Source: Dryococelus australis (lineage: Eukaryota; Arthropoda; Insecta; Phasmatodea; Phasmatidae). Taken from it: a DNA stretch of 64,000 nt. Positions within the stretch are counted from its first letter, which is position 1, and every line of letters begins with the position of its first letter. Positions 7,106 to 61,640 of this stretch are shown piece after piece. The stretch lies in contig CM057003.1 of NCBI GenBank assembly GCA_029891345.1, positions 11,820,709-11,884,708 of the forward strand, written 5' to 3'. The translations under genes and the position numbers were made by a program. Below the pieces are notes generated by a model. It was not told the origin of the DNA. It saw only the letters and a program-made list of their open reading frames with translations, and made no database searches.

Positions 7106-7680
7106 TAGAGCTATTGACAATTTTAACTTTAAATATTTGTGCAGTTTCGGCCAGTGCGCGCTTGGCAGCGCTAGAGACACTGATTCGAACACAGGCAGTT
7201 GACATAGCATTCTTGCAAGAAGTAGCGATTCAAGATTTTATAGAGTTCCATACCACCCGTCAGGCCGAGTGATGTCAGGACGAATAAACAATGTGTCGCT
7301 AGTCAATGTTTATGGTCCCTCCGGCTCCCAAGCGAGATATGAAAGAAACCAGTTTTTCTCCGTGGATTTGATTCCGTTTTTCCATCCACCCTGTAATCAG
7401 TTCATACTCGGTGGACATTTCAACTACATAGTTCATCCCCATGATCATCAGGGTGGCATTTATCCTACTAACGCTGCCTATCTACTTTAATCACTCGCTT
7501 AGACTTGTGTGATGTATCTAATTTCCAAGGAATTCATTACAGCATCTATGTGACTTCACAGAGTCGGTCTAGGATTGACCGATTTTACGTGAAAAAAAAC
7601 AGCATATACATAAAGTACATCGATTTGACGTTCTTCCGGTAGCTTTCAGCGATCACTCTGCAGTGATATTTACGTATGGA
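7104..7680 (+). pseudogene. LINE ORF2 APE-type endonuclease domain, broken
   Basis: The ORF2 start is put at ATG 7104, which gives LTILTLNICAVSASARLAAL and then DIAFLQEV; its glutamate is the expected catalytic residue. A frame change follows, then VSLVNVYGPSGS, QFILGGHFNYI (the GDFN motif with Asp replaced by His), SRSRIDRFYV and FSDHSAV (the SDH motif near 7646-7668). The segment between LQEV and NVYGPSG is shorter than usual, suggesting an internal deletion. The domain nicks target DNA to prime reverse transcription; the lost Asp and the frame changes make this copy inactive. Confidence 0.75.
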
Positions 7681-8265
7681 AAGTTTGCGAATGTAACACG
7701 GTTTGGCAGAGGGACATGGCGTCTAAATACGTCTTTATTAGACAGCTCAGAAGTAAAAGAGGACTTCCTAGCTAATTGGGTACGTTGGCATAACAAGAAA
7801 TACCAGTTCCCCTCTGTGGCGATGTGGGAGTATGTATGTGGAAAACCGAACGCCATGAGGCTCTTTAAAAGGCATGCTTACCGACTGGCAGAAGAACGTA
7901 GGGGAACACGTGCATTCTACGAACATATGCTACACGAACTTCAACTGCAGACAAACAATGGTGCACACGTAACTCCACGTATTAGATACACGAAACAGAA
8001 GCTTATGCATTTATTCAGTGAACCGTTTAAAAATCGTCATATTATGATAAACGATAAAAGTCTATTCGCAGAAGAGAAATTTAGCATGTTTAGTCTCATT
8101 AAGGAACAACAGCAAACACGACGCAAGGTTATTGTTCGGGACCGGCTGGAAATAGTGCAAACGCTTTGCAGTTACTCTGCCTATTTATACTTCCGTCGGT
8201 TTTACAGGATTGTGAAAAAAGAGTTAGCTGTGACAGCAAGACGGGAATGGAGGTTTCATGTTTAG
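7663..8265 (+). pseudogene. LINE ORF2 linker between endonuclease and RT
   Basis: A 200-residue open frame follows the SDH motif and contains FGRGTWRLNTSLLDSSEVKE, the post-endonuclease GxWRLN pattern usual in L1/Tx1 ORF2. It continues with basic, Glu/Arg-rich helical sequence (RRGTRAFYEHMLHE, KEQQQTRRKV). It ends at a stop just before the reverse transcriptase N-terminus. Confidence 0.65.
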
Positions 8266-8289
8266 ATACGGAAGTTAATACAATAATAC

Positions 8290-9490
8290 AGTAGTTGTAT
8301 CTAAAAAAAAATCCCCTGGTATTAATGGTATTCCATACGAATTTTACAAAACTTATTGGGATATTATTGGCGCTGAATTCTACGAAGTTGTTCGTGATGT
8401 GCTTGAAAGAGGGAAGTTATGCAAGTCTCATAAAGAAGGGATAATTGACCTTATACCCAAAATGTCCCGTCCACTTAAACCTACGGATTATAGGCCAATT
8501 ACACTTCTATGTGCCGATTATAAAATAATTGCTCGGTTTTGTGCGACCTGATTAACCACGGGATTGTCAGATATTATCGGTCCCGGCCAGACATGTACTG
8601 TTCCAGGACGTTCCATTTAACAAGGCGTGCTTGCCCTAAGGGACATTCAATTACTTTCGTCAATACAACACAGTAAAATGGTCATCTTGAGTACTGATAT
8701 GGATAAGGCATTCGATAGAGTCGATCATAAATTTTTATTTCATGTTATGAATCATTTCGATTTTCCAGCCAATGCAGTACAGTGGGTGCGGATGGTGTGT
8801 ACCGGAATTTGGTCACGGCTGATGGTTAACGGATTCCTTACCCCACCTATTGAGAGTTCAGTTCATCAAGGATGCCCGCTATCCATGATTTGATATACTA
8901 TCGTCATTGACCCTCCGTGCAAAATGCTCAGCGCCCGCTTGCAAGTATTCCCTGTAGCGAACCTGTCCTTTAAATTAAATGCCTATGCTGATGACATAAC
9001 ATGTGTCGTTCGTTCAGAGCGGGAAATTACAGAGATGGCAGAATGCCTGGACCTTTTTCGCAGTGTCTCCAATCTGCGAGTGAATGCTAACAAAACTGCC
9101 GTACTGGAGCTCAGCGCGACCAGCGAGCCATTTGACGACGTTTTTTCCTTTCGGAGGGCCGAAATTGTGAAAATATTGGGCATATACTTCCATGCAGACG
9201 CCACTCATATGTTGCATTATAATTGGAAGATGACAATAAAAAAACTCCGTGCTCGTCAAATAGAAATGAATTATCGTCGTACAAGTATTATACAGAGGGT
9301 TACTTTAATAAGTGTATTATTACTTGCGAAGCTGTGGTATGTGTCACATATATTCCCACTACCACGTCAACAAAGTGCACAAATACTACAGATTGTTGGC
9401 CGCATGCTGTGGAAATCTTATATATTTAAATTGTCTAGGCCGCAACTTTATCTTTCCTTGCAAGATGGAGCCTTATTAATCACGTTTTGA
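8290..9490 (+). pseudogene. LINE ORF2 reverse transcriptase domain, broken
   Basis: RT blocks appear in order: SPGINGIPYEFYKTYWDIIG, DYRPITLLCADYKIIARF, GPGQTCTVPGRSI, STDMDKAFDRVDHKF (first catalytic Asp), SSVHQGCPLSM and LNAYADDITCVV (the YADD catalytic box near 8977-9000). The thumb follows (VKILGIYFHADATHM, then RVTLISVLLLAKLWYVSHIF). Internal stops lie near 8550, 8620 and 8892, and there is a stop near 9490. The PGRSI and YADD surroundings match L1/Tx1 elements better than CR1 or Jockey, from memory of the family. Confidence 0.85.
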
Positions 9491-10227
9491 AGTGTGAGGC
9501 CTTATATCAATCTTTAGCAATTGCAACAATTTTGCGCCCAGAGGACATTTACGCAGCATTACAGAAAATGATGTGGTCTGAAGTTAGACCCATGCCACTT
9601 CAATACCGTCAGGCAAAGGAAGCACTCGCAACTCTAGTAGAACACTTACCGGAAGGGACAGTCGCATCAGCGAGATATTTGTACATTCGGGCTTCCAAAA
9701 TGTCGGCAGTCATACCATCTGTTGTAAATCGCACCCCAACCATCCGCTGGAGGCACCCATGGAAAATACTTTCCGATCCTAACCTTTCCTCGGATCTTCG
9801 AGCTGCAGCATTCGGCTTCTACAATAATATCGTGGCAACTCAGCAGCGTAAATACAGAATTCACCTGACAGCTGACCCTACATGCCCGCTGTGTGGCAAC
9901 ACCGACACGGCCCTTCATAGGGCAATTTCCTGTGTTTATGCAGCACCCATCTGGCAGTGGTGTCGCGTACGAGTACGAAAAATTATTCGCGATGAACGTG
10001 GAGATGTCAGCGACACGCACATGCTTCATTGCGATTTCTTCACCTTCCCCTCAGTTCGACGAAGAGCTGCGGCCTGGTTTGTACTTCATGCGATCGGTTT
10101 TTTGGTGGACCATTCGAAACCGGTGACAGTTCAAGACTTTGTCCAGCTTCTTCGTCAAGATAGGTGGAACATGGCGCGGCGTGGCACATTGCGTCAGTGG
10201 TACGGCAATTTTTTATTTTCATTCTGA
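9487..10227 (+). pseudogene. LINE ORF2 C-terminal region with zinc finger
   Basis: A 246-residue open frame follows the RT thumb. Near its residues 137-153 it carries CPLCGNTDTALHRAISC (C-x2-C-x7-H-x4-C), the C-terminal zinc finger of L1/Tx1/R1-type ORF2 proteins. Trp-rich helices follow, ending DRWNMARRGTLRQWYGNFLF, before the stop at 10225-10227. This is the best preserved part of the element. It overlaps the previous frame by a few bases, consistent with a small indel. Confidence 0.75.
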
Positions 10228-17785: not shown

Positions 17786-17925
17786 TATTCTCGGTGAAGT
17801 GACCTACACTGGGTTTATTACTTACGTGGAAGTATTCATTTAAAAAGGTGGTTAAAGGATTAAGCATGGCTGATATAAAAAAGTAACTAAGGCCTCGAAA
17901 CTGCTCACGTTAGCATGACCAGCCT
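17786..17925 (+). mobile_element. MITE family B copy, diverged and shortened
   Basis: Left end AGGCTATTCTCGGTGAAG, interior ATTTAAAAAGGTGGTTAAAG and right end CTGCTCACGTTAGCATGACC AGCCT match family B with internal loss. Its right terminus is the start of the 52-bp triplication that follows. Confidence 0.6.
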
Positions 17926-18058
17926 ATACCTCACCTACGCCTAGAGTCGCCCGTGCTCACGTTAGCATGACCAGCCTATACCTCACCTACGCCTAGAGTC
18001 GCCCGTGCTCACGTTAGCATGACCAGCCTATACCTCACCTACGCCTAGAGTCGCCCGT
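17903..18058. repeat. Three tandem 52-bp units made from a MITE end plus flank
   Basis: Three apparently identical units start at 17903, 17955 and 18007. Each has GCTCACGTTAGCATGACCAG, then the CCTATACCTCACCTACGCCT block and AGAGTCGCCCGT. The first part is the right terminus of the MITE B copy and the rest is neighbouring DNA. Confidence 0.9.
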
Positions 18059-18956
18059 GCGCAAAAAACTGGCTTGAAAACATGAATTCTCTTTTAACCA
18101 AATTGCAAATGTCTTCGTCTTGAGTTTCAAATTGCTGCCAATTAAAATCAATCAAACGCCAATTTAAAAAAAAAATGATAATGAGGAGAGAAAGTCTCAG
18201 CTTTATCTTAAATGTAGCTAAACAGCGACAAAAAATGAATCATTAAATTCAGGTAGACAGCAGATTCCCCTCTCCACCCACGGTGCTTACAATTTTTTTT
18301 TTTGCGAAGTCAATTTTGTTCACCAGTTCCGCCGCTCTTGCTGATGATGACTTAGTGAAGCGATACTGGCGTTCATGGGCTACAAAAGGTGTTTCGAATT
18401 GTCGACCTCCAACTTCAACACAAAACGTACATCGGTGCTGCAGAGATCGGGACTCGCCGTCAAAGGCGCCAGGTTGTGTGATGAGTATTTCAGCCGCGGT
18501 GTGGTTTCGTGTGATAAGATACCCCTCAGATGATACTGGGGTCTCGCAAGCCTTGTTTACCCAACTTTGTCGCCCGAAACGACTTAGCCACGCAATACCG
18601 CGATTGAGTCCTCTCTCATAAAATGTTCAATTCCTTTTCTTGTATCCCACACTGTACGTTGTCCTTTTTCCTCCACCAAAAGGTTTCCTAAACAAACGTT
18701 TCTTATAACAGGTGACATAAGGAGTGTACGTGTTCGATCGCACATGCTCCACCCTGGGATGGCCATGAAGTTACATCTAACCGAGCATCAGATTTACTAC
18801 AGTCGATTGGCGTCACGGTGCCATTGCCATCTTAGCAACTAGCCAAACTTGCTTCACCGAGGACACAAAAGATAGTCTTCTACAGTTCTCAAAAAAAAGG
18901 TCGAAGTAATTTTTCAAATCTGAATTATGTGTGACGTTCAAAAGGTAGATCGCCTA
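18059..18956. other. No recognised feature
   Basis: Mixed-composition DNA. A 112-residue frame at 18283-18621 and a minus frame at 18584-18766 show no family motifs. Confidence 0.4.
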
Positions 18957-31596: not shown

Positions 31597-31598
31597 CA

Positions 31599-32472
31599 CA
31601 CTCTAATTTTTTCGTACAGCAAGAAAAATCATTGGAAACCCAGTTACCAAGAAAATCCTTTGTAAAAATACAAAGAGTTTTATTGCGAAATCTGCTAAAC
31701 ATTTCTTTGCAGTATTACAAACGGTAGCCTTGTATTACAACTGACATTATTGAAAAGTGTAAATAAAATTACTTTTTTTTTTATTCTAAAACACAAATGT
31801 AATGGAATAGTAACAGATAACAACTAAAACATAAATATTCAAAATGTAATTTACAAAAACAAAACAATTATAACCGGCCGGGATGGGGGTTATAACTCAC
31901 ACCCCTTGTATTACTAGCCTGCACCTTTATCCACAAGAGCAACTTGACCTGGGAAACTATCGCTTATTTTTACTGTAAATATATGTACAAGTACATATAA
32001 AATAAAGTTTAAGTTACACCGTTAAGAAGAATAGGTTTTTTTTTTTTTTTCATTTCCGTTGTTAAGTTAAGAAATTTGGACGGCTCTTAACAACGGGGCA
32101 TTTAGAGTCGATTTAAGAGTTATATGTAGCTAGGAAACACTAATAAATAATTAATAATACGGTCAAGTTTTATTGAAATTGTCGTTTTATTATGATTATT
32201 TGAGTTGTTTTAAGTGTTTTGCGTAATTAAAACTTGCAATACATCTCCTTTTGCACCCATAGTTTTTGCACAAATAGCTTTATACGGTTTTACGTTGTTG
32301 AGTGTCCGCCATTTTGCTGAAGATCGTGTATACGGCTCAGTATAGTGCAAACATTTCCTAAGTCCTATAACGCGGACCTTGTAGTTCTACAAGAAAAATC
32401 TTTGTACTGTTACAAGCATTTGTAAAATTACAAAGAATTTCTCAGTAAAAATCACCAAAAATTTTTAGAGTG
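31599..32472 (+). mobile_element. Family C CACT-ended element, copy 1 (874 bp)
   Basis: Starts CACTCTAATTTTTTCGTAC and ends AAAATTTTTAGAGTG. CA at 31597-31598 and 32473-32474 is the 2-bp duplication. Both ends are packed with TTACAAAG/CTTTGTAA-type repeats in both orientations. The interior includes GTGTCCGCCATTTTGCTGAA (32305) and a SINE2-tail-like segment (TTGGACGGCTCTTAACAAC, about 32076-32094). No transposase. EnSpm/CACTA-like is inferred from ends, duplication and subterminal repeats. Confidence 0.7.
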
Positions 32473-32868: not shown

Positions 32869-33692
32869 CACTCAATAAATTATTATTTTTTTGTTATTTA
32901 ACAAGAAAAATTCTTGGAAACGCCAAGAGAATCCTTTGTAAAACTACAAAGAATTTTCTTGTAAAATCTGCAAGACATTTCTTTGTAATATTACAAATTA
33001 TAGCCTTGTATTAGAACTGACATTAATGAGAAGTGTACAATAAATTACTTTTTTCTCTTCTAAAAACCAAATGTGATGAATTAGTAACAGAGAGAGAAAA
33101 GAAATATATATATATATATATATAATTTACAAAAAAAATACACTTTGCCACCAGGGGTATCAGATCTCACACCCCTTGAATTCCTGGCCCGCACCTTCAA
33201 CTACAAAACCATCTTAACTTTAGATATTAACACTTATTTTTATTGTAAATATAGTTGTAAGTACATATAAAATAATATAAGTTATTTGTTTAAAAAAAAT
33301 AGATAAAAACGGGGTATTAAGAGCCGATTTAAGAGTTCTGTGTAGCTAGGAAACATTAATAAATAATAAATAATATGGTCACGTTTTATTATGGTTATTT
33401 GAGTTGTTTTAAGTGTTTTGCGTAATTCAAACTTGCAATACATTTCTTTTTCTACGCACAGTTTTTGCAGAAGCAGCTTTATACGGTTTTACGTTGTTGA
33501 GTGTCCGCCATTTTGCTGAAGATCGTGTATACGGCTCAGTATAGTACAAACATTTCCTAAGTCCGATTACAAACAAGGACCTTGTAGTTTTACAAACGAG
33601 TAGTTTTACAAGAAAAATCTTTGTACTGTTACAAGCATTTGTACAATTGCAAAGAATTTCTCAGTAAAAATTACAAAAATTTTTTTAAAGTG
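32869..33692 (+). mobile_element. Family C element, copy 2 (824 bp)
   Basis: CACTCAATAAATTATT at the left and TTTTTTTAAAGTG at the right are diverged family ends, flanked by CA at 32867-32868 and 33693-33694. The interior follows copy 1 closely, including AGCTAGGAAACATTAATAAA and GTGTCCGCCATTTTGCTGAA, but lacks most of the SINE-tail-like segment. A TA run lies at about 33105-33123. Confidence 0.65.
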
Positions 33693-42072: not shown

Positions 42073-42693
42073 AACTCTAAAAAAATTTGTAATTTTTATT
42101 GAGAAAATCATTGTAATTTTACAAATGCTTGTAACAGTACAAATATTTTTCTTGTATGCCTACTCGTTTGTAAAACTACAAGGTCCGTGTTTGTAACAGG
42201 CCTTAGGAAATGTTTTTACTATACTGACCCGTTTCAATAAGCTCCAGCAATATGGCGGACACTCAACAACGTAAAATCGTATTTTGCTGTTTGTGAAAAA
42301 ACTATTGGTGACGTAAAGTGTAGCTGCGTGCAAAAAGAAATGTATTGCAAGTCTGAATTACGTAATGCACTTAAGACAACCGTATTATTCATTATTTGTT
42401 AGTGTTTCCTAGCTACACAGAACTCTTAAATCGGCTCTTCATACCCCGTTGTTAAGAGTCGTCCAAATCTCTTAACTCAACAACCGAACTCTTAACAAGA
42501 AATAAATGTACCTATTCTTCTTAACCGTATAAGTTCGATATATTTTTGTATGCCGTTGTACGTATATTTACAGTAAAAAAAAAAGTCCTAAACTCGTTAG
42601 TCAAGTTGGTTTGAAGGTTAAAGGTGCCGGCTGATAATGCAAGGGATGTTTGCGGGGTTTGAATTTTTTTCCGTTAATTATATTTTAATTAAT
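42073..42693 (-). mobile_element. Family C element, copy 3, left part
   Basis: Starts AACTCTAAAAAAATTTGTAA; TA at 42071-42072 is the 2-bp duplication, matching TA at 50564-50565. It follows copies 1 and 2 in reverse, with TGGCGGACACTCAACAACG, the TTGTTAAGAGTCGTCCAAAT module (SINE2-tail-like) and AGCTACACAGAACTCTTAAA. It is interrupted at 42693 by the LTR retrotransposon. Confidence 0.7.
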
Positions 42694-43895
42694 TGTACTG
42701 GCTCGTCTGACCAGCCCATGCCTGAGTGTCTGGCTGTTATTAAGACCCCACGTAAGGGTGCAAATTTCTGTAACAGTCAGTGATACTACCCTGAACTGTT
42801 ACAATAAATATGGCACAATCTCCAACAAAACAAATGTGCTCAATAATAAGACGGAATGTACAAATTATTATATGTATATATATTTAATTATTACTATTAT
42901 TCATTATTTACTTGCCATGGCTATGGGAATCTTCCATATAAAGTGCAAAAGTCAATATTACACGAAATTATGAAATTAAAATTAAAATCAGCATATTATT
43001 CAGGAGATATGAAATAATACTACAAGAAAATTATTCTACCACGTAAGCATTCATAGATAAGAAAGAACTCCAATTAATTGTTAGAAACACACATCGAAAA
43101 CATAGTACTAATTAGCCTTCGCAAAAGGTTCATGAATAATATGGTGTATGTTGGACTAATATGTAGACGAGAAAAAAAAGTAGTCCACAGTTAGATCTGC
43201 GGTTCTCCTCCTGGGTTCGAATCTGGTACCTCACAACTCCCTGTCGACTGCGATTCCATGACGGCGTAGGTACTCCGACATCCTTCCTTCATTCACGGTC
43301 CTGGGGTCGACCCCCGACTCAACCACTGAAGCGGTGACCGTGTTCCCGAAGGTTGAGCTATTCCTCATGACGTACCTCCTTCAGGAAATTGCTGATAATG
43401 TCTGACCAGAAGTTACTCGAAGAACCAAACGACGAGGTTCTCAATCCCTTTGAAAGTTCGTCGTCGACACCTCTGTTACTGACGACTCAATATTATGCAG
43501 TTACTTTCTTCTTTTGTATACTTCTGTTTCTTAAACTTGACAACATTTAATCATAAGAAGAACACTTCTTGAAATCAAACACAAATATTAAATTAACTTC
43601 AGCAAAAACTGATTAAATCGGAACCTCTTACTTATTTTAATTCATTAAACTAATACCTTTTAGAACAACCTTAAAATGTTCCAAACATTACATAAAAAAT
43701 ATTGCAAAACAAAACATTATTATAGATTAATACAGGGTTAAATATCACAAATTTACAACTAAGGGATCTGTTTAACATTTATACAACTATTTTTTCCTTT
43801 TGAACTAAATAAAACTTTACATATATGTACCACTTGTGATATTCAAATTACGCTAACACCATTAATCAAATTAGGAAGAAAAACCAGGTGTTACA
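42694..43895 (-). repeat. LTR (3' LTR in element orientation)
   Basis: Direct partner of 49177-50323. It contains a tRNA-B-box-like GGGTTCGAATCTGG near 43215, also present in the other LTR. Confidence 0.85.
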
Positions 43896-44261
43896 GACTA
43901 TCCGCCCAAATTTAAAATATAACAAATATTTTACTCTTGAAAAATTTCACTTAATGCTTGTAATACCTGTTACTTATTTAAATACTTAAATAGTTATCTT
44001 ATATTATTCATGAATATTGATTACTTTACAATTAAAATTACCAAAGAGCGCCAGCTAAGGAACATTCAATGATTTCACTTTCAACACAAAATTAATACAG
44101 AAAATATACACTATTTACAAAGTAGCCCTTACAATTGGTTAAAGAGTTTTTAAGTTTTTGACCTTTTAAGGTAACAAGGATGGTCACCCATTTGATATAA
44201 TGACGCAGTAGATGTTACTGTCTCTCACGTCGTTGGGTGGCTACTTCTCGCAGTGACACTC
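43896..44261. other. Interior of LTR fossil next to its 3' LTR
   Basis: AT-rich, with no recognisable domain. Confidence 0.4.
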
Positions 44262-44320
44262 CTGTTGACATCGTGGCTTTGGAGTACCGAAGTGGTACTC
44301 CAAAGCCACGATGTCAACAG
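44262..44320. repeat. Perfect 27-bp inverted repeat with 5-base loop
   Basis: Arms CTGTTGACATCGTGGCTTTG (plus GAGTACC) and their exact complement surround GAAGT. It abuts the following minisatellite. Confidence 0.95.
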
Positions 44321-44568
44321 TAGCGTAGCATTTCCTCTGCAACACTGTCCCTGCCAGTAGCGTAGCATTTCCTCTGCAACACTGTCCCTGCCAGTAGCGT
44401 AGCACTTCCTCTGCAACACTGTCCCTGCCAGTAGCGTAGCACTTCCTCTGCAACACTGTCCCTGCCAGTAGCGTAGCACTTCCTCTGCAACACTGTCCCT
44501 GCCAGTAGCGTAGCACTTCCTCTGCAACACTGTCCCTGCCAGTAGCGTAGCACTTCCTCTGCAACACT
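44321..44568. repeat. 37-bp minisatellite, about 6.7 units
   Basis: Units start at 44321 and every 37 bp to 44543 (TAGCGTAGCACTTCCTCTGC plus AACACTGTCCCTGCCAG). The first two have GCATTTCC and the later ones GCACTTCC. The last unit is partial. Open frames on the minus strand are a by-product of the repeat. Confidence 0.95.
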
Positions 44569-45085
44569 TATAAATATCTATGTGGAGCAGTCTAATACGT
44601 TTCACCAACCAACCGTTTCAATTGTTAGCTCCTGTCTTTATTCAGCAGGAGTCCAAATAATTTTTCTCATAGGAAATAAAAGTTCACTTTGGGTGATGTA
44701 ATACATGGCCCAAATAAACACTAGTGAGTGTCCTTTTTCTTTCAAGTCATTATCACTTATTTTAGTCCTAAGACTACGCCACTTCAAAGTGTCCTAGTTA
44801 CAGTTCATATTCGCCTTGTTTTTTCACCTTGCACTATATTCCAGAGCGACCCTGACAAATAAACTGGGCCCCCAAACTCACTCACCAATGCTCACAGTAG
44901 TATGATAGTTAAATTATTAGAGAATGGTTTATCAACCATAGCATCGATTAGAATTATGAATAGGTGTAAAGAAGACTCTCGACCCTCTAAAGAGGTAACT
45001 TCAGAAGACCCTACCTAGGAAAAAGTATTTGTTTCGTTATTGTACGTTCACATCAGCCAGTACGAAGTATTGTATATAGTCCATT
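44569..45085. other. Interior of LTR fossil, nothing recognised
   Basis: No domain visible on either strand. Confidence 0.4.
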
Positions 45086-45089
45086 CATG

Positions 45090-45330
45090 CTTTCTTTGGC
45101 CTTTTGGAATCGAACCTTTGAAAAATCACCCTAGGCGTATTATGTCAACCTGTTTTTCAATAACTTGTATTCCACAAATATTTAACACTGTGATTAACTT
45201 TAGAATACTGTATTATTGAATAAATGAAACTTTGCCTTAGTATCTTATATAACTTGTAATATTTATTTCGTATTAAATGCGAATTAATAACAGTGAGAGC
45301 AGCGACGTGTTGGCATTGGCCGGTAAGAAA
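45090..45330. mobile_element. Family D repeat fragment inside the LTR fossil, reversed
   Basis: The reverse complement carries GGTGATTTTTCAAAGGTTCG and GAAAAACAGGTTGACATAAT, matching the right part of family D. Confidence 0.45.
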
Positions 45331-45334
45331 TAGT

Positions 45335-47376
45335 TCACAGTTACAATATTTTTTAACCTCGTTTTATATATAATATTTGTAAGTTAAACGTTGCCAATTG
45401 ATATATTCGTATTTCTAGGCAGCACTGACGGAAACACATTTCATTGCTGCAGTTAAAAATATCCGCGCAAATTCCCGTGTGTAGGCTGGTGTTTTTTTCC
45501 GCCCGGAATAAAGGTTCAATAAGCGAAGCAGAGCTTGTCGCTCTCGTTCTCTCTGTCTCTCTTCTCTCTCTCTCAGGAAGATCGTACCACCTGTGTAGGA
45601 AAGGTATAAATTTTGTTATTTCTAATTTGAGCACATCTCATACTAATTACAGTAACAGTAATGATGTCTGAGATTGTAATTTACAACTGAAACGAGATTT
45701 TATTGTTTAAATACCTATTATATGTTATTTAAATGCAACGGCATATTTTAGATGCGATGGCGCGACACAGCTCGTTACGCGACACTTACAAATCCAGCAA
45801 GTTGGCAGACGTGGTGTGGAAAGCGTTCCCAATATGGCGGCGGCAAGCGACATACAATGATACGGCGTGTTTCTCAATGAAGCGTCAAGTTCGTACTCGT
45901 GTTTTTTTTAAACATCCTACGGAAGTTACAATGTTGTGATAAATATGTGTTTCCACGGCAGAGAGAAATGTGTTATGATCGTTGCATATGAAAGGGCGTG
46001 GTGGCTGCGTTGTAATCGTTACGCAGGCCAGGTGTGTGTGTTGATTTCAAATACGTGCAAAATTTATACGTTTTAACCATGAACTGATGTTATGACGAAG
46101 TTAATTATTTACCTTCACGTCTGTTTATCACAACGTTGTACCTTTGCGCTAGGTGTTTGGAAAACAGTTGTGTAACGAGCTTACGTTTCTGTGATTTGAA
46201 TGTCTGCAACAATCCCAACGAAATACTAAGCCCACCCAGATAAGATTAAATAAATAATAAAATAAACGTACAAACCAGTAAGTACCAATGCATGTAAATA
46301 TTAGCGGAATAAATGTTACGGCAGGCCTATGTGTTTGTATGTTCAACACTATCTTTTACATTTGTCGATGTACAATAAATAAGCGACACGAGTTGCGTGC
46401 TTGAATTAACTGCGTCGTTTCGCTGGACTGGTTGTCCCTTCGTTTTAATTTTTATTCCAAACACATATTAATAACAACAGGTTAAATACTACTGTTGTTT
46501 ACGCCACAGTTGTAACAAACACCGTCATGGCAAAATAGTAATGTGTATTATGTGTAAAATGCTATATCGTGTGTAACAAATAGTTATAAAGCTGACCTAA
46601 ATATTGTTATAGGCCTACATTGTGAACATTCGCAGGAAATGGTTTCCGCAATATGACACAGTTCTTTGAACAGCTGTAAACAGCAACCAACGCATTTGAC
46701 AGTTATAAAAGTAGAAGTCACATGGCAGTATTTATGTTTACGTGTGGCGGAAGGATACGTAATCAGTAACCAAAAGTATAAATTTGGCAGGGCTTTCAGA
46801 AAAGGCCGAAGTTATCGTGAATCAACTATATTAACTCATTTAATTGCTGATTTTACTAGCGATGGATTCTTTTTAATGACTTGCCATCTTATTTACTGTA
46901 AATTAAAATTGGTTAATGGTCTTTGTTAAACATCGTTACCAATTTTTTTCCCCCTTGCTGTTTAGTTTGTCCTATTTAGGCAGTTTACATGGCTTGCGAT
47001 TCAGACTCTGAACTAGGCCGAACATTTCCTTATGTCACACAATTACCCCTCCATATTGGTAGGAAATTTTAAGTATTTTGCCGCAAAATATACTACTATA
47101 TAACCAATTCCTTATACGACTTCGTCGTTCACGTGGCACATGTTCAGGGCACAATAAAATATTATTAGATGTGGAACAAATTCTTATCATCACCTGGCGG
47201 CATTTATCTTTGCCTTATTATTCGTTACACATCATGTACATAAACTCAAGCCCCAAACATTAATTAATACAACAAAATTCCACTTTTACGACAGTAATTC
47301 TCAATAATCACATCTCAAAATTACTTGCTTCTCATTTGGCAACTAAATTGTACTTGTTAATTTTCCAACATCTTTC
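45335..47376. other. Interior of LTR fossil, unassigned
   Basis: About 2 kb without recognised coding parts. A pyrimidine-rich tract ending in CAG (TCTCTCTTCTCTCTCTCTCA, about 45552-45571) precedes a GTATAA about 28 bases on, resembling splice signals by chance or otherwise. Frames at 45353-45671 and 46666-46929 lack motifs. Confidence 0.35.
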
Positions 47377-47808
47377 CTAAACTGACGTAATTGGCTGTTG
47401 GACCTCTCTTAAAGCCATGGTGTTGTACTTGCCTATGACTTTTCCTGTCTCAGGACAAACTGCTTCGTAGCAATCATGATTACAGATCTTCCAAATTCGC
47501 ACTGGTCCAACGCAAAGTGGTATCAATTTCTTGGAAAGATATTCCCAAGCTTTGGAAATGCAATGAGCTCGAACCAACACTAGCTGCCCGACAGTTAGGT
47601 CCTTCTTCCGAGATTTCTTCGCGTACTTGTTTCTTCGTTCAGCGGCTAAGATTATTCTTTTTCTTGTGAATTCCAATATTTCTCTCTTCCTTTCTTCGGT
47701 GTCTTCTTCATTTTCCGTTGATTTAGTGTAGGGCGGAGGAAGTAATTTTGATATGTCAAATACTAAGGATCGCTGACCTGATAGCACTTCCAGAGTTTCA
47801 TGGTTCAA
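47377..47808 (-). pseudogene. Integrase C-terminal tail of the LTR fossil
   Basis: A 143-residue minus-strand stretch has a charged helical part (ERRNKYAKKSRKKDLTVGQL) followed by VLVRAH and a GP-centred motif (PLCVGPVRIWKI) resembling the GPY/F module of Ty3/Gypsy integrases. It then reads YEAVCPETGKVIGKYN. This module helps multimerisation and targeting in the family. It is a fossil part of the broken element. Confidence 0.6.
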
Positions 47809-47859
47809 AGTCTTGGATATAGGGTCAGTTGGTGCCTCCAGAATCCCACAGCTTTTGGT

Positions 47860-48015
47860 TCTAGTTTCTTCTTCTAGTTACTTTCTTTCGCATCTTTATC
47901 ATTTTGTTTTTCCTCTTCTTTCTCATTTTAGTCCTTTTCTTCTCTCCTCTCTTCTTCCTTCTCTTCTTTCTTGTCTTCATTTCTTTCTTCCTCCTTATCA
48001 TATTTATCTTCATCC
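47860..48015. repeat. Pyrimidine-rich tract inside the LTR fossil
   Basis: About 155 bp of T/C-rich sequence with TTCTTCT and TCTCTT variants. Confidence 0.7.
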
Positions 48016-48030
48016 ACTTCCATTTTCTCA

Positions 48031-49037
48031 TCACGATGTTTTTTTTTCCAACTTCACGATGACGTAATTTAACAGCAAAGCTGAGTGCGACTGTTGTGGC
48101 TTTTTAACACTACTTCCTTCGAACGAAAGCATCTGGTCTGCCCAAAGTTTACTGGCGTGGTACAATAATGAACTCGCCAAGCCAATTGACTGTGTAGGGT
48201 TGTCAATGGCGTGAATGGGTTCGTGTCTGTCCAGCGAACTTGTACTCAACGACAGATTAATGCAATTAGTTTGACATGCAGAATTAGGTCTGGTATTTCT
48301 GAGCTGTATTTCCTCTACGGATCTAATGACATCGTTTTGCTTGTTCACTACTAATTTTATTTCGTCGCCAACTTGGTTTAATTTAATTTCTGTTGTGGTT
48401 ATCTCACTGTCCAGTTTATGCTCTACATGGTTTCCAAAAACTTCAAATTGTACAGATACTCTTTCCTATATGCGGTGGAATTGCGTTCGATCGCCGTAAA
48501 TCGCTGTTCGAACCTTTCTGAAATGGATTCTAGTTCGGTGCGCGTATGGGAAATTTCTCCTCGTAAATCCTCGGAAGTTTGTCCCAGTTTATTATCTATG
48601 GCCTCTACTTCTCTCTGCACAGAGTAGAATTGTGCGGAGCATGCCTCGGTTAACTGATTGAACTGCGTGTTAAAGTTATTTACCAGTTCACCTTTCATTT
48701 CACGCATGTCGCGAGACTCTTGTTCTTGGCGTGCACTAATTTAACATACTAGTTCGCCTTTCATTTCATGTACCAGTTCGCCTTTCATTTCACGCATGAG
48801 CTCCGCCAATTGTGCAAATGTGAATGTCGGGAAAAGATTAGCATTTACGGGTTCTTGTTCGTTAGTATTCTCTACGTTAGTTCCGTTTTCGGAGGTCGTG
48901 TTATCTATGTTTGCCTGCAATTCTATGTCTGAATTTCCACTCGTATTAGTCATTGCATTATCTGTGGGAATTGACATTTTGTTATCTATGTCTTTAGTCT
49001 TCCTAAGAAAATATGCTGACCTCGTTTCGCTGTTCAT
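48031..49037 (-). pseudogene. Gag-like region of the LTR fossil
   Basis: Minus-strand frames lie directly inside the 5' LTR. The N-terminal part is acidic and Asn/Thr-rich (DIELQANIDNTTSENGTN) and is followed by repeats of MKGELV, then a long coiled-coil-like part with heptads (VEAIDNKLGQTSEDLRGEIS). Position next to the 5' LTR and the coiled-coil character suggest gag; no zinc knuckle was identified. Fossil, broken. Confidence 0.5.
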
Positions 49038-49176
49038 AAATTGTAAATGTCATTAACATAGATAGCTTACTCTATGGAAGTTCTTATTGACCATAACTTG
49101 CAACTTTATCTATGGCTCTCAGGATTTATATGGGTTAAAATTATGTCGAAAGCCCCACGATTTAGGTAGACAATTC

Positions 49177-50323
49177 TGTACTGGCTCGTCTGACCAGCCC
49201 ATGCCTGAGTGTCTGGCTGTTATTAAGACCCCACGTAAGGGTGCAAATTTCTGTAACAGTCAGTGATACTACCCTGAACTGTTACAATAAATATGGCACA
49301 ATCTCCAACAAAACAAATGTGCTCAATAATATGACGGAATGTACAAATTATTATATGTATATATATTTAATTATTACTATTATTCATTATTTACTTGCCA
49401 TGGCTATGGGAATCTTCCATATAAAGTGCAAAAGTCAATATTACACGAAATTATGAAATTAAAATTAAAATCAGCATATTATTCAGGAGATATGAAATAA
49501 TACTACAAGAAAATTATTCTACAACGTAAGCATTCATAGATAAGAAAGAACTCCAATTAATTGTCATAAACACACATCGAAAACATAGTACTAATTAGCC
49601 TTCGCAAAAGGTTCATGAATAATATGGTGTATGTTGGACTAATATGTAGACGAGAAAAAAAAGTAGTCCACAGCTAGATCTGCGGTTCTCCTCCTGGGTT
49701 CGAATCTGGTACCTCACAACTCCCTGTCGACTGCGATTCCATGACGGCGTAGGTACTCCGACATCCTTCCTTCATTCACGGTCCTGGGGTCGACCCCCGA
49801 CTCAACCACTGAAGCGGTGACCGTGTTCCCGAAGGTGGAGCTATTCCTCATGACGTACCTCCTTCAGGAAATTGCTGATAATGTCTGACCAGAAGTTACT
49901 CGAAGAACCAAACGACGAGGTTCTCAATCCCTTTGAAAGTTCGTCGTCGACACCTCTGTTACTGACGACTCAATATTATGCAGTTACTTTCTTCTTTTGT
50001 ATACTTCTGTTTCTTAAACTTGACAACATTTAATCATAAAAAGAACACTTCTTGAAATCAAACACCAATATTAAATTAACTTCAGTAAAAACTCATTAAA
50101 TTGGAACCTCTTACTTATTTTCATTCCATAAACTAGTACTTTTTAGAATAACCTTAACACGTTCCTAACATTACATCAAATTGACAACTAAGAGACCTGT
50201 TTAACATTTATACAACTATTGTTTTCATTTTCAACTAGATAAAACTTTACACATATGTCCCACTTGTGATATTCAAATTACGCTATCACCATTCAACAAA
50301 TAAGAAAAAAAACAGGTGTTACA
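49177..50323 (-). repeat. LTR (5' LTR in element orientation)
   Basis: Direct partner of 42694-43895, beginning TGTACTGGCTCGTCTGACC and ending CAGGTGTTACA, with TAAT following. Confidence 0.85.
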
Positions 50324-50563
50324 TAATATTTTTTAGTGGTTTTCTGTTATTAATTCATCACATTTGTTTTCTAGAAGAAAAAAAGCATTTTTAAGTACAC
50401 TTCTCAATATGTCAGTTGTAATACAAAGCTATAATTTGAAATATTACAAATAAATGCCTTACAGATTTTACAAGAAAACTATTTGTAGTTTTACAAAGGA
50501 TTTCCTTGGCTATTGGGTTTCCAAGGATTTTCCTTGCGAAAGTACAAAAAATTGTTTAGAGTG
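50324..50563 (-). mobile_element. Family C element, copy 3, right part
   Basis: Begins at the TAAT duplication and continues CTTCTCAATATGTCAGTTGT, TTACAAATAAATGCC and GTAGTTTTACAAAGGATTTC to the end AATTGTTTAGAGTG, followed by TA (50564-50565). Confidence 0.7.
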
Positions 50564-50587
50564 TACGTAAACAGGTACGAGTAGCGT

Positions 50588-52500
50588 CGAATGTTACATA
50601 GCAATGTGATACTCGCTAGCTGTGAAAGTACAGGCCTGTGTAGGAGCACGAGGATGTTACATAGCAATGTGATACTCGCTAGCTGTGAAAGTACAGCACG
50701 AGGATGTTACATAGCAATGTGATACTCGCTAGCTGTGAAAGTACAGGCCTGTGTGGGAGCACGAGGATGTTACATAGCAATGTGATACTCGCTAGCTGTG
50801 AAAGTACAGCACGAGGATGTTACATAGCAATGTGATACTCGCTAGCTGTGAAAGTACAGCACGAGGATGTTACATAGCAATGTGATACTCGCTAGCTGTG
50901 AAAGTACAGGCCTGTGTGGGAGCACGAGGATGTTACATAGCAATGTGATACTCGCTAGCTGTGAAAGTACAGGCCTGTGTAGGAGCACGAGGATGTTACA
51001 TAGCAATGTGATACTCGCTAGCTGTGAAAGTACAGCACGAGGATGTTACATAGCAATGTGATACTCGCTAGCTGTGAAAGTACAGCACGAGGATGTTACA
51101 TAGCAATGTGATACTCGCTAGCTGTGAAAGTACAGGCCTGTGTGGGAGCACGAGGATGTTACATAGCAATGTGATACTCGCTAGCTGTGAAAGTACAGGC
51201 CTGTGTGGGAGCACGAGGATGTTACATAGCAATGTGATACTCGCTAGCTGTGAAAGTACAGGCCTGTGTAGGAGCACGAGGATGTTACATAGCAATGTGA
51301 TACTCGCTAGCTGTGAAAGTACAGGCCTGTGTGGGAGCACGAGGATGTTACATAGCAATGTGATACTCGCTAGCTGTGAAAGTACAGGCCTGTGTAGGAG
51401 CACGAGGATGTTACATAGCAATGTGATACTCGCTAGCTGTGAAAGTACAGCACGAGGATGTTACATAGCAATGTGATACTCGCTAGCTGTGAAAGTACAG
51501 GCCTGTGTAGGAGCACGAGGATGTTACATAGCAATGTGATACTCGCTAGCTGTGAAAGTACAGGCCTGTGTGGGAGCACGAGGATGTTACATAGCAATGT
51601 GATACTCGCTAGCTGTGAAAGTACAGGCCTGTGTAGGAGCACGAGGATGTTACATAGCAATGTGATACTCGCTAGCTGTGAAAGTACAGCACGAGGATGT
51701 TACATAGCAATGTGATACTCGCTAGCTGTGAAAGTACAGGCCTGTGTGGGAGCACGAGGATGTTACATAGCAATGTGATACTCGCTAGCTGTGAAAGTAC
51801 AGCACGAGGATGTTACATAGCAATGTGATACTCGCTATCTGTGAAAGTACAGGCCTGTGTAGGAGCACGAGGATGTTACATAGCAATGTGATACTCGCTA
51901 GCTGTGAAAGTACAGCACGAGGATGTTACATAGCAATGTGATACTCGCTAGCTGTGAAAGTACAGGCCTGTGTGGGAGCACGAGGATGTTACATAGCAAT
52001 GTGATACTCGCTAGCTGTGAAAGTACAGCACGAGGATGTTACATAGCAATGTGATACTCGCTAGCTGTGAAAGTACAGCACGAGGATGTTACATAGCAAT
52101 GTGATACTCGCTAGCTGTGAAAGTACAGCACGAGGATGTTACATAGCAATGTGATACTCGCTAGCTGTGAAAGTACAGCACGAGGATGTTACATAGCAAT
52201 GTGATACTCGCTAGCTGTGAAAGTACAGCACGAGGATGTTACATAGCAATGTGATACTCGCTAGCTGTGAAAGTACAGGCCTGTGTGGGAGCACGAGGAT
52301 GTTACATAGCAATGTGATACTCGCTAGCTGTGAAAGTACAGCACGAGGATGTTACATAGCAATGTGATACTCGCTAGCTGTGAAAGTACAGCACGAGGAT
52401 GTTACATAGCAATGTGATACTCGCTAGCTGTGAAAGTACAGCACGAGGATGTTACATAGCAATGTGATACTCGCTAGCTGTGAAAGTACAGCACGAGGAT
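50588..52500. repeat. Satellite-like tandem array of 50- and 63-bp units (about 34 units)
   Basis: The 50-bp core runs CACGAGGATGTTACATAGCA, ATGTGATACTCGCTAGCTGT, GAAAGTACAG. Sixteen units add a 13-bp module GCCTGTGTGGGAG or GCCTGTGTAGGAG. Writing S for 50-bp units, and G or A for 63-bp units by that base, the order read by eye is A S G S S G A S S G G A G A S A G A S G S A S G S S S S S G S S S S. The cores look almost identical; one change (CTATCT for CTAGCT) is near 51838. The last nine units contain only one long unit. Confidence 0.97.
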
Positions 52501-54200
52501 GTCAAGAAGTATGTTGATATGGTAACGAGTGCTGTTGGTTAATCATTTACTGTTATTACAGAACATTTGCTGGATTATATTTACTATAGCCCAGCAATTT
52601 ATTATCTGTGAGGAGCCTGTGACATGCAGTTAAATAAAACATAGGTTCAGGGCGTCCTAAGTATTTTCCTGTCAGTATACTGCAATAAATATGAAACATT
52701 ACGCATACCTAAATATAGTTTTGAGTTGTAAATAAGGGAATTGTTTCCTTGTCTGTGAAAATATTGTATGAATGTACTAAACATTTTTCTATTACATACA
52801 GGGGAATTACACTCATTCCCCTTCCCGGGGAACTATAAACAACTATAAACGTACGCGGTGTGATTCCTTTAAATATCCCGTCTTCATTCTGCCGTGTAAG
52901 TCATCTCGTCTTGCCGTATGTACTGTACATAAATTTTGGTAGATAGTTTCTAACATGCGTACAAGAATGCAACACTGAAAATTAATATTTTTTAGTCACT
53001 ACTACACAGGCTTATTCTGAACTACAGTTTAAAAAGCAGTGATATGATTCTTAATGCGAAATGAGAAACAGGATATTATACGACCTCTGACCTACAATGA
53101 TTGCTAAAGGAAATCGCGTCCTAGGAAATCGAAATTTAATTTTTTTTTCTAATGGTAGGAAGTAGTATTAACAACGTTTTCCTGGATAGTGCTTTACTGA
53201 ATGAATATAAGTAGCCTGTGAAAGTTTGGTAATATCACACTCTGCTACAAAAAAAAAAAATTATTGAAGTTTCGTGTTATTGTACAAAACTTAGAAACCC
53301 TACACTTGATCAAAATTTTAATGATGGATTTGAATTGTCGTGTTTAAATTAGCAAAACGGCAAACAATTCTCAATTCTCAAGGGGGGAAACCTACAAAGT
53401 TTGACCTTGCCAACTATGTAACCTGTATGACAGCGTTTTATTATTAATAGTTTTAATGAAAGGAGATCATATTAATAACCGATTCGTTTGGACTTAGTCG
53501 CCAACTGGGTTGCACTTTTAGATTATTTTATTGCCAGGTGTTCGTTTTTGGTTAGTGTTGATCCTGCATGCGCTAGTATAACCACGATTTGCTCACATAG
53601 ACAACAAATTCGTGCGAATGTTTGAATTAAAAACTGGTGACGATTAATTTTCGACCTCTCCCGTTCTCTGCGTTAAGTGCAGGGCTACCTTTTATTATCA
53701 TGCCATAAAATAATAGGGTCACCTCTTAATTGTATTTTCCAGCGATTTAGAGGCACAATGCAACCCATAATAACCACGTTTACTTCAAGGAGATTGAGGC
53801 ACGGGCCTCATAAAAATACGTTCCTCCACTCCCGCTATGCCTGCCCGCTTTGACATCGGCGCGACGAGGAAGACAATATGTGCAGAGGGGGACCTACAGC
53901 CAGCATAAAACGAACTTTTTACATTAAAAAAAAGTGTTTCTATCTATCCACAATTATTTAAAAAATTTACTTAGTGACTTTACTTACTCATATTATACAC
54001 GCTCGTGATGGTCTAGGACGAAAAGCCTTCCCCAGCAGGCCTACGTACGTGCGACAGCAAGGTGTCGCCCAGCAATCAGACATAGCTTCCAGCTGCGGCG
54101 AGCACCCGAGGTAGACTGGCCACTGAGTGTAGGGGATAGTTTGATCCGCCCGCGCCAGACCGCGCTGCTGTAGCGGCGGTTGTGTGGCCGGATGGTTAAC
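52501..54200. other. AT-rich, no recognised feature
   Basis: An A(13) run lies near 53250. Short minus frames near 53988-54203 have no family motif. Confidence 0.4.
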
Positions 54201-60065: not shown

Positions 60066-60796
60066 TACCATCTCGCTCTCTGACATCCATCGTGAAATAC
60101 TTGTCGGTGCCCTCTGCCGCCGAATACCATCTCGCTCTCTGACATCGTGAAATACTTGTCGGTGCCCTCTGCCGCCGATTACCATCTCGCTCTCTGACAT
60201 CGTGAAATACTTGTCGGTGCCCTCTGCCACCGATTACCATCTCGCTCTCTGACATCCATCGTGAAATACTTGTCGGTGCCCTCTGCCGCCGAATACCATC
60301 TCGCTCTCTGACATCGTGAAATACTTGTCGGTGCCCTCTGCCGCCGATTACCATCTCGCTCTCTGACATCGTGAAATACTTGTCGGTGCCCTCTGCCGCC
60401 GAATACCATCTCGCTCTCTGACATCGTGAAATACTTGTCGGTGCCCTCTGCCGCCGATTACCATCTCGCTCTCTGACATCCATCGTGAAATACTTGTCGG
60501 TGCCCTCTGCCGCCGAATACCATCTCGCTCTCTGACATCGTGAAATACTTGTCGGTGCCCTCTGCCGCCGAATACCATCTCGCTCTCTGACATCGTGAAA
60601 TACTTGTCGGTGCCCTCTGCCGCCGATTACCATCTCGCTCTCTGACATCGTGAAATACTTGTCGGTGCCCTCTGCCACCGATTACCATCTCGCTCTCTGG
60701 CATCCATCGTGAAATACTTGTCGGTGCCCTCTGCCGCCGAATACCCTCTCGCTCTCTGACATCGTGAAATACTTGTCGGTGCCCTCTGCCGCCGAT
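60066..60796. repeat. Minisatellite of 55- and 59-bp units (13 units)
   Basis: Unit TACCATCTCGCTCTCTGACA, TCGTGAAATACTTGTCGGTG, CCCTCTGCCGCCGAA or GAT. Units 1, 4, 8 and 12 have an extra CATC (59 bp) and the others are 55 bp. A/T at the unit end (GAATACC or GATTACC) and GCCGCC/GCCACC are further variants. Minus frames up to 212 codons are repeat artefacts. Confidence 0.96.
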
Positions 60797-61640
60797 TCTT
60801 GCCGAAGGCTAACGAATAGACAGAGTATATTTACTCTCACTCGAAAGTGACGTCAGAGAGTGTTGTTCCGTAAGACACAGTGCGAGTGCACGAGTGCGTG
60901 TTGATGCATGCTCTACGCGTGCTCCCGGGATATTGTTTGTGTATTTTCGTTCGAACCCTGTCGTCATGTCATCCACACGATGACAGACGAACAAAACAAT
61001 TTTTCACTGTAAGTAAATGTTTGCAGTAGTGGAAAAAAAAAGTTTCTTTATAATATATAATGAGTTCGTTGTTGTATATCATGTTCATCATGCATCGAGA
61101 TAGAAGTTTTATTTCAATTGTATGATAAGCGAGTGCAGCTTCTGGTTATTTGGGAAGACGCGGTACTGTACTACGTACGATGGCATGGTATTCTTGTTCT
61201 CTATTCGCCGAGGATCTCCGCGCTCCCACGTGTCCCTCTCCCGTGCGCCTTGCTCTCGTTCCTCTCGCGCAGCCGCGTTCCTCCGGAGCGGCCAAATCAG
61301 AGGACTTTCCCCGCAGTGGGAACCACACGCAGCCGGTATCGCAAGGAGCTCGGTGCGTCGGTGCGTAAACAGGTTTACCATCGCACACGTGTATTTTTTT
61401 TTATCGAGCCTTTCGTGGGGGTAGGTATTCGCGACTGCTAAGTGGTGCCGTCCCCTATGCAAGGTGCTGGTTTATAAGTTATGGTATTTAGAGTAGAATT
61501 GTAACTAAACATTAAACGGGAGATTTAAAAAATTATTAATACGTATTTTACGAACAAGATTTCTGTCGGAAAAGTTTCAGCATTTCATATGTAATTCCAT
61601 GTTCTTGTTGAGTACTAACTACGAAACAGGAAGACAATGC
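60797..61640. other. GC-rich segment then AT-rich, no gene recognised
   Basis: 61180-61400 is GC-rich with five overlapping frames on both strands; none has family motifs. It could be a CpG-island-like element. Confidence 0.4.

Follow-up and report, generated by a model that had tools for sequence, protein, structure and literature searches.

A likely variable, probably neutral single-locus minisatellite with two unit lengths in Dryococelus australis

The 64,000-bp window that we analysed (positions 11,820,709 to 11,884,708 of contig CM057003.1 of Dryococelus australis) carries a tandem array of 1912 bp at 50591-52502. We consider, with a probability of about 0.88, that this array is a neutral minisatellite restricted to a single locus, likely a VNTR, which grew mainly by turnover of blocks of several units. 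It consists of 34 head-to-tail units whose 43-bp core is identical in 33 of 34 cases (Table 1). Short units (S, 50 bp, n = 18) have the linker CACGAGG, the linker after core 34 being counted as short. In long units (63 bp, n = 16), CACGAGG is preceded by a 13-bp module that exists in two states: GTGGG (G, n = 9; module GCCTGTGTGGGAG) and GTAGG (A, n = 7; module GCCTGTGTAGGAG), the full linkers being GCCTGTGTGGGAGCACGAGG (n = 9) and GCCTGTGTAGGAGCACGAGG (n = 7), respectively. From left to right, the unit map reads ASGSSGASSGGAGASAGASGSASGSSSSSGSSSS. Only three features vary among the 34 units, two of them interspersed at intermediate frequency and the third found in a single unit. The array is far beyond chance expectation since TRF detects a 113-bp period over 50758-52502 (score 1989) and a perfect 313-bp period (2.0 copies, 51864-52502, score 1278). 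A previous sequence-only reading had announced about 34 nearly identical cores and two unit lengths set by a 13-bp module with two states, at 50588-52500; all of this holds, the coordinates being within 3 bp of ours.

Table 1. Coordinates (positions in the window) of the array, its parts and its flanks
Feature	Position	Strand	Description
Whole minisatellite	50591..52502	+	34 units: 18 short (50 bp) and 16 long (63 bp), followed by 4 bp (ATGT) from one more unit
Mixed part, units 1-22	50591..51872	+	All seven A modules, seven of the nine G modules, eight short units
Core of unit 22	51810..51852	+	One G>T (core position 29), all other cores being identical
Units 23-28, map SGSSSS	51873..52185	+	Perfect 313-bp duplication, copy 1
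Units 29-34, map SGSSSS	52186..52498	+	Perfect 313-bp duplication, copy 2
Right part of dispersed repeat	50324..50566	+	Stops some 25 bp short of the array's left edge; left part at about 42300-42693, across the LTR-flanked insertion
Right flank	52503..52900	+	One genome match (itself); no significant degenerate edge unit

The 3.415-Gb assembly (646 contigs) was searched for copies of the unit, the repeat counts given by the tool being lower bounds. A 34-bp word of the core, allowing up to three mismatches, gives at least 34 matches, 34 of 34 inside the array, and the reversed control word gives none in the assembly. A 71-bp query from the array likewise finds one place. Since all core-word matches fall inside the array, it is a single-locus minisatellite and not a satellite. 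The sequence-only reading had called it a satellite and had envisaged dispersed single units; the label does not suit one 1.9-kb locus for whose unit no further array was found in the assembly, and no dispersed unit turned up outside the array at ≤3 mismatches over 34 bp. For the same lack of outside copies at this threshold, we rejected a transposon-derived tandem repeat as the nature of the array. The locus lies near 11.87 Mb of C11 (127.35 Mb), in the interior of the contig and not at its end.

According to an excerpt of one publication (PMC2674676), minisatellite units range from 7 to 100 bp and their few variant types can be coded as a symbol string, minisatellite variant repeat (MVR) maps being an established way to string such variants along a minisatellite. 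Part of another publication describes minisatellite alleles with two similar unit types randomly interspersed (PMC2363947). The array has head-to-tail units within the 7-100 bp range, a single locus and interspersed variant units. Like MVR-mapped minisatellites, it has units of 50-63 bp in tandem and few variant types; it differs from them by its main variant, which is a 13-bp indel and not a base change, and by being seen in a single assembly. With satellite DNA it shares uniform head-to-tail units, but it is one 1.9-kb array at a single interior site, and the assembly search found neither a long array nor several arrays of this unit family. The unit map is an MVR map, and the array is a further example of an established kind, the minisatellite with an MVR map. 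Its VNTR status and length polymorphism are likely, as judged from one assembly. Among ten sampled stretches of 5 kb (50 kb), one tandem repeat (72 bp x 2.1) had a period of at least 10 and a score above 200, a sample too small to give a background rate of minisatellites.

To the left, the array neighbours a dispersed repeat that is split by an LTR-flanked element (42694-50323). The terminal direct repeats of this element, of about 1.2 kb (42694-43901 versus 49177-50329 as aligned), are 92.3% identical over 1209 columns with 5 gap openings; their first 707 bp are 99.2% identical and the later part is far more diverged. TAAT is present on both outer sides of the element and is read as a putative 4-bp target-site duplication. 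Since the insertion splits the dispersed repeat and the element ends at about 50323, the array is outside the LTR-flanked element: it is DNA of the older locus beside a transposon insertion. When 40 of the 2479 first-look candidates for the dispersed repeat were scored, the 39 besides itself were 87-91% identical, and its left part (aligned at about 42300-42691) was 83.6-85.2% identical in the five of five copies compared. We rejected the idea that it is a copy without its head, the left part being located beyond the LTR-flanked insertion. Partial copies on the opposite strand occur at 31598-31833 and 32887-33091 (79% and 84% identical), and in copy L011 a stretch upstream resembles a tRNA B box.

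Other tandem arrays are present in the window. About 8 kb away, the array at 60066-60797 comprises 13 units; four measure 59 bp and nine measure 55 bp, the difference being a CATC indel. The last base of the units is A or T, they carry a G/A variant, their order is mixed and the last unit is followed by an extra T. This neighbour also occupies one place in the genome. It thus resembles the studied array by its single place, two unit lengths, base states and mixed order, and differs from it by its unit sequence, its 13 units and its 4-bp indel (versus 13 bp). Hence, two-length units and base states are not peculiar to the studied array. A perfect 52-bp repeat (17902-18060, 3.1 copies) likewise has a single genomic location. 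Within the LTR-flanked element, a 37-bp array (44318-44568, 6.8 copies) has a unit similar to a portion of a tandem repeat with a 166-bp period at C14:82.97 Mb; at C10:126.69 Mb, too, the distances between matches of this unit are multiples of 166 bp.

The order of the units was compared with that of shuffled 34-letter maps (5,000 shuffles for words; 20,000 for runs and for the short-unit excess of the right end). The longest word repeated without overlap is the six-letter SGSSSS, which covers units 23-28 and again 29-34 (p = 0.37), and the numbers of distinct words of 2, 3, 4 and 5 letters do not depart from those of shuffled maps (p = 0.43, 0.33, 0.37 and 0.49). There are 24 runs of like units against 21.6 +/- 2.5 in shuffles, and 18 against 17.9 when short/long order alone is considered. 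Compression of the map yields 13 phrases, and 99.7% of shuffles yield as few or fewer, i.e. a deviation in the opposite direction. The A and G states of the 16 long units form 12 runs versus 8.9 in shuffles, a slight excess of alternation (one-sided p = 0.08). The A-G-A-S motif, pointed out in the sequence-only reading, does occur twice (units 12-15 and 16-19), but word content matches that of shuffled maps, and such motifs do not stand as a signal. The same applies to the claim of a readable order in which the module records the history of the array, as both repeated words and runs match shuffled maps. Since words and run counts match shuffles, this single allele shows little history beyond chance, the right end alone giving some hints.

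These hints concern the last 12 units, a stretch that was picked post hoc: 10 of them are short (p = 0.0096) and none carries the A state (p = 0.032). The statement that the right end is made almost purely of short units is thus correct as a count, with a p value that is weakened by the choice of the stretch. This excess of short units (p ~0.01, post hoc) speaks against uniform mixing. A polar turnover, in which the right end has recently gained short units by duplication of a block (SGSSSS having been copied once) whereas an older mixed map persists in the left two thirds, is conceivable but rather unlikely. Polar mutation is a feature of human minisatellites, and polar turnover, if true, would make the array comparable to them.

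How the array grew was explored by simulations in which two variants were placed at 1-14 units, block sizes were uniform and arrays were cut to 34 units. Acceptance was based on broad unit counts near those observed, and the simulations, run without recurrent mutation, separate only single-unit from multi-unit copying. Duplication of single units leads to a mean of 3.6-3.8 runs, and in each of three settings 0 of 300 accepted arrays reach the 24 runs observed. Blocks of up to 5, 8 and 12 units lead to means of 23.4, 23.9 and 24.5 runs without later turnover, and to 18.0-23.2 runs with 30 or 100 turnover steps. With smaller blocks, limited to 2 or 3 units, the means are 15.8 and 20.2 runs without turnover, 24 runs being reached in 8.7% and 24.7% of accepted arrays, respectively, and 7.7-15.2 runs with turnover. 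Multi-unit copying is therefore favoured, because simulated single-unit duplication leaves like units clumped. Growth solely by replication slippage of single units, as in a long microsatellite, could account for the runs of short units, SSSSS and SSSS, of the right end, and part of one publication reports mostly single-variant steps at the human loci MSY1 and INS (PMC2674676). Given the shortfall of runs under one-unit steps in all three settings, modelled without recurrent mutation, we nevertheless find this mode of growth very improbable. The perfect 313-bp duplication of six units is consistent with the copying of multi-unit blocks. Furthermore, since two variants are mixed and only one further substitution is found in about 1.9 kb, rearrangement seems to be fast relative to point mutation; the high uniformity, earlier taken as a sign of recent expansion or conversion, fits turnover that outpaces point mutation.

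Under neutral block turnover, an ancestral single unit would have been duplicated in tandem, and growth and turnover would then have proceeded mainly by copying, loss or conversion of blocks of neighbouring units. This may have happened through unequal exchange between sister chromatids or through gene conversion in the course of break repair, two processes between which a single allele does not discriminate. A 13-bp indel and an A/G transition would each have arisen in a single unit and been spread and mixed by block copying. The lone G>T of the core is confined to one unit and presumably has not spread.

The perfection of the 313-bp block (units 23-28 and 29-34) could also be viewed as the trace of an assembly error that duplicated this block or, more generally, gave a wrong number or order of units. 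This is very unlikely, since the interspersed variants of units 1-22 fix much of the order, an array of 1.9 kb would fit inside one long read and both flanks adjoin the array within a 127-Mb contig. Even less plausible is a functional element, regulatory or RNA-producing, that selection would have kept uniform. That 33 of 34 cores are identical, a very high uniformity, is what such an element would show, but turnover predicts it equally well, the unrelated neighbouring array at 60066-60797 looks alike, and there are 0 copies outside the array at ≤3 mismatches over 34 bp. The array also displays no Rfam match, no unusual DNA folding and no Pfam match above the cut-off in the two frames scanned. 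A unit length of 50 bp is not divisible by 3, and the open frames of the array of at least 75 codons stop within it; in two of these four frames, the only Pfam match is KIAA0319_N (22.5 bits, below the cut-off of 27). Folding and hairpins of the DNA are no better than in shuffles (z -1.2 to +0.8). In the window as a whole, no Rfam family reaches the gathering score and ARAGORN (bacterial code) finds no tRNA gene. Thus, as far as coding, RNA-family and DNA-folding predictions can tell, the array bears no sign of function, and function is not needed to explain it. The window has 153 open frames of at least 75 codons, and one of the 20 scanned passes the Pfam cut-off, with a reverse transcriptase match at 8621-8890. 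This frame belongs to a series of open frames (7579-10224) in which two of its neighbours have sub-threshold matches to reverse transcriptase and RT zinc-binding domains; the series is probably a decayed non-LTR-like element.

The edges of the array fit neutral block turnover less well. Old arrays often have decayed outer units. Here, local alignment against 2000 shuffles reveals no clear degenerate unit at either edge, and our impression by eye that the flanks are decayed units is not supported by this test. Shuffles score at least as well in 513 of 2000 cases for the left 60 bp, 520 for the right 150 bp and 1590 for the right 60 bp; for the left 150 bp the figure is 91 (nominal 0.046), with an alignment located at 50441-50546 across the dispersed repeat and not at the edge. 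Such abrupt edges without clear degenerate units count against an explanation by neutral turnover.

Regarding the founding of the array, the model of Haber and Louis, as given in parts of two publications (PMC4232551, PMC3389668), has an array start from short direct repeats (5-10 bp) on its two sides, by slippage or unequal exchange between them. The edge overlap found here is 4 bp only (ATGT), short of that range, and overlaps of at least 4 bp occur at about 2% of random breakpoints. At other arrays the overlap is 3 bp (17902), 2 bp (L048), 29 bp at 44318, where it represents a partial unit, and -1 bp at 60066, where the comparison suffers from the base state. Since these overlaps vary, founding by microhomology has no general support. 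The 13-bp module has AG on both sides, but because matches of at least 2 bp are common at random breakpoints (18%), these borders do not tell an insertion from a deletion.

The locus is an ordinary one. The neighbouring two-length array indicates that an indel and a base state within a minisatellite unit are no special signal. The practical value of the array is that of a marker: a single-locus array of 1.9 kb, with three easily scored unit types and a single-copy right flank, could be genotyped with long reads or by PCR.
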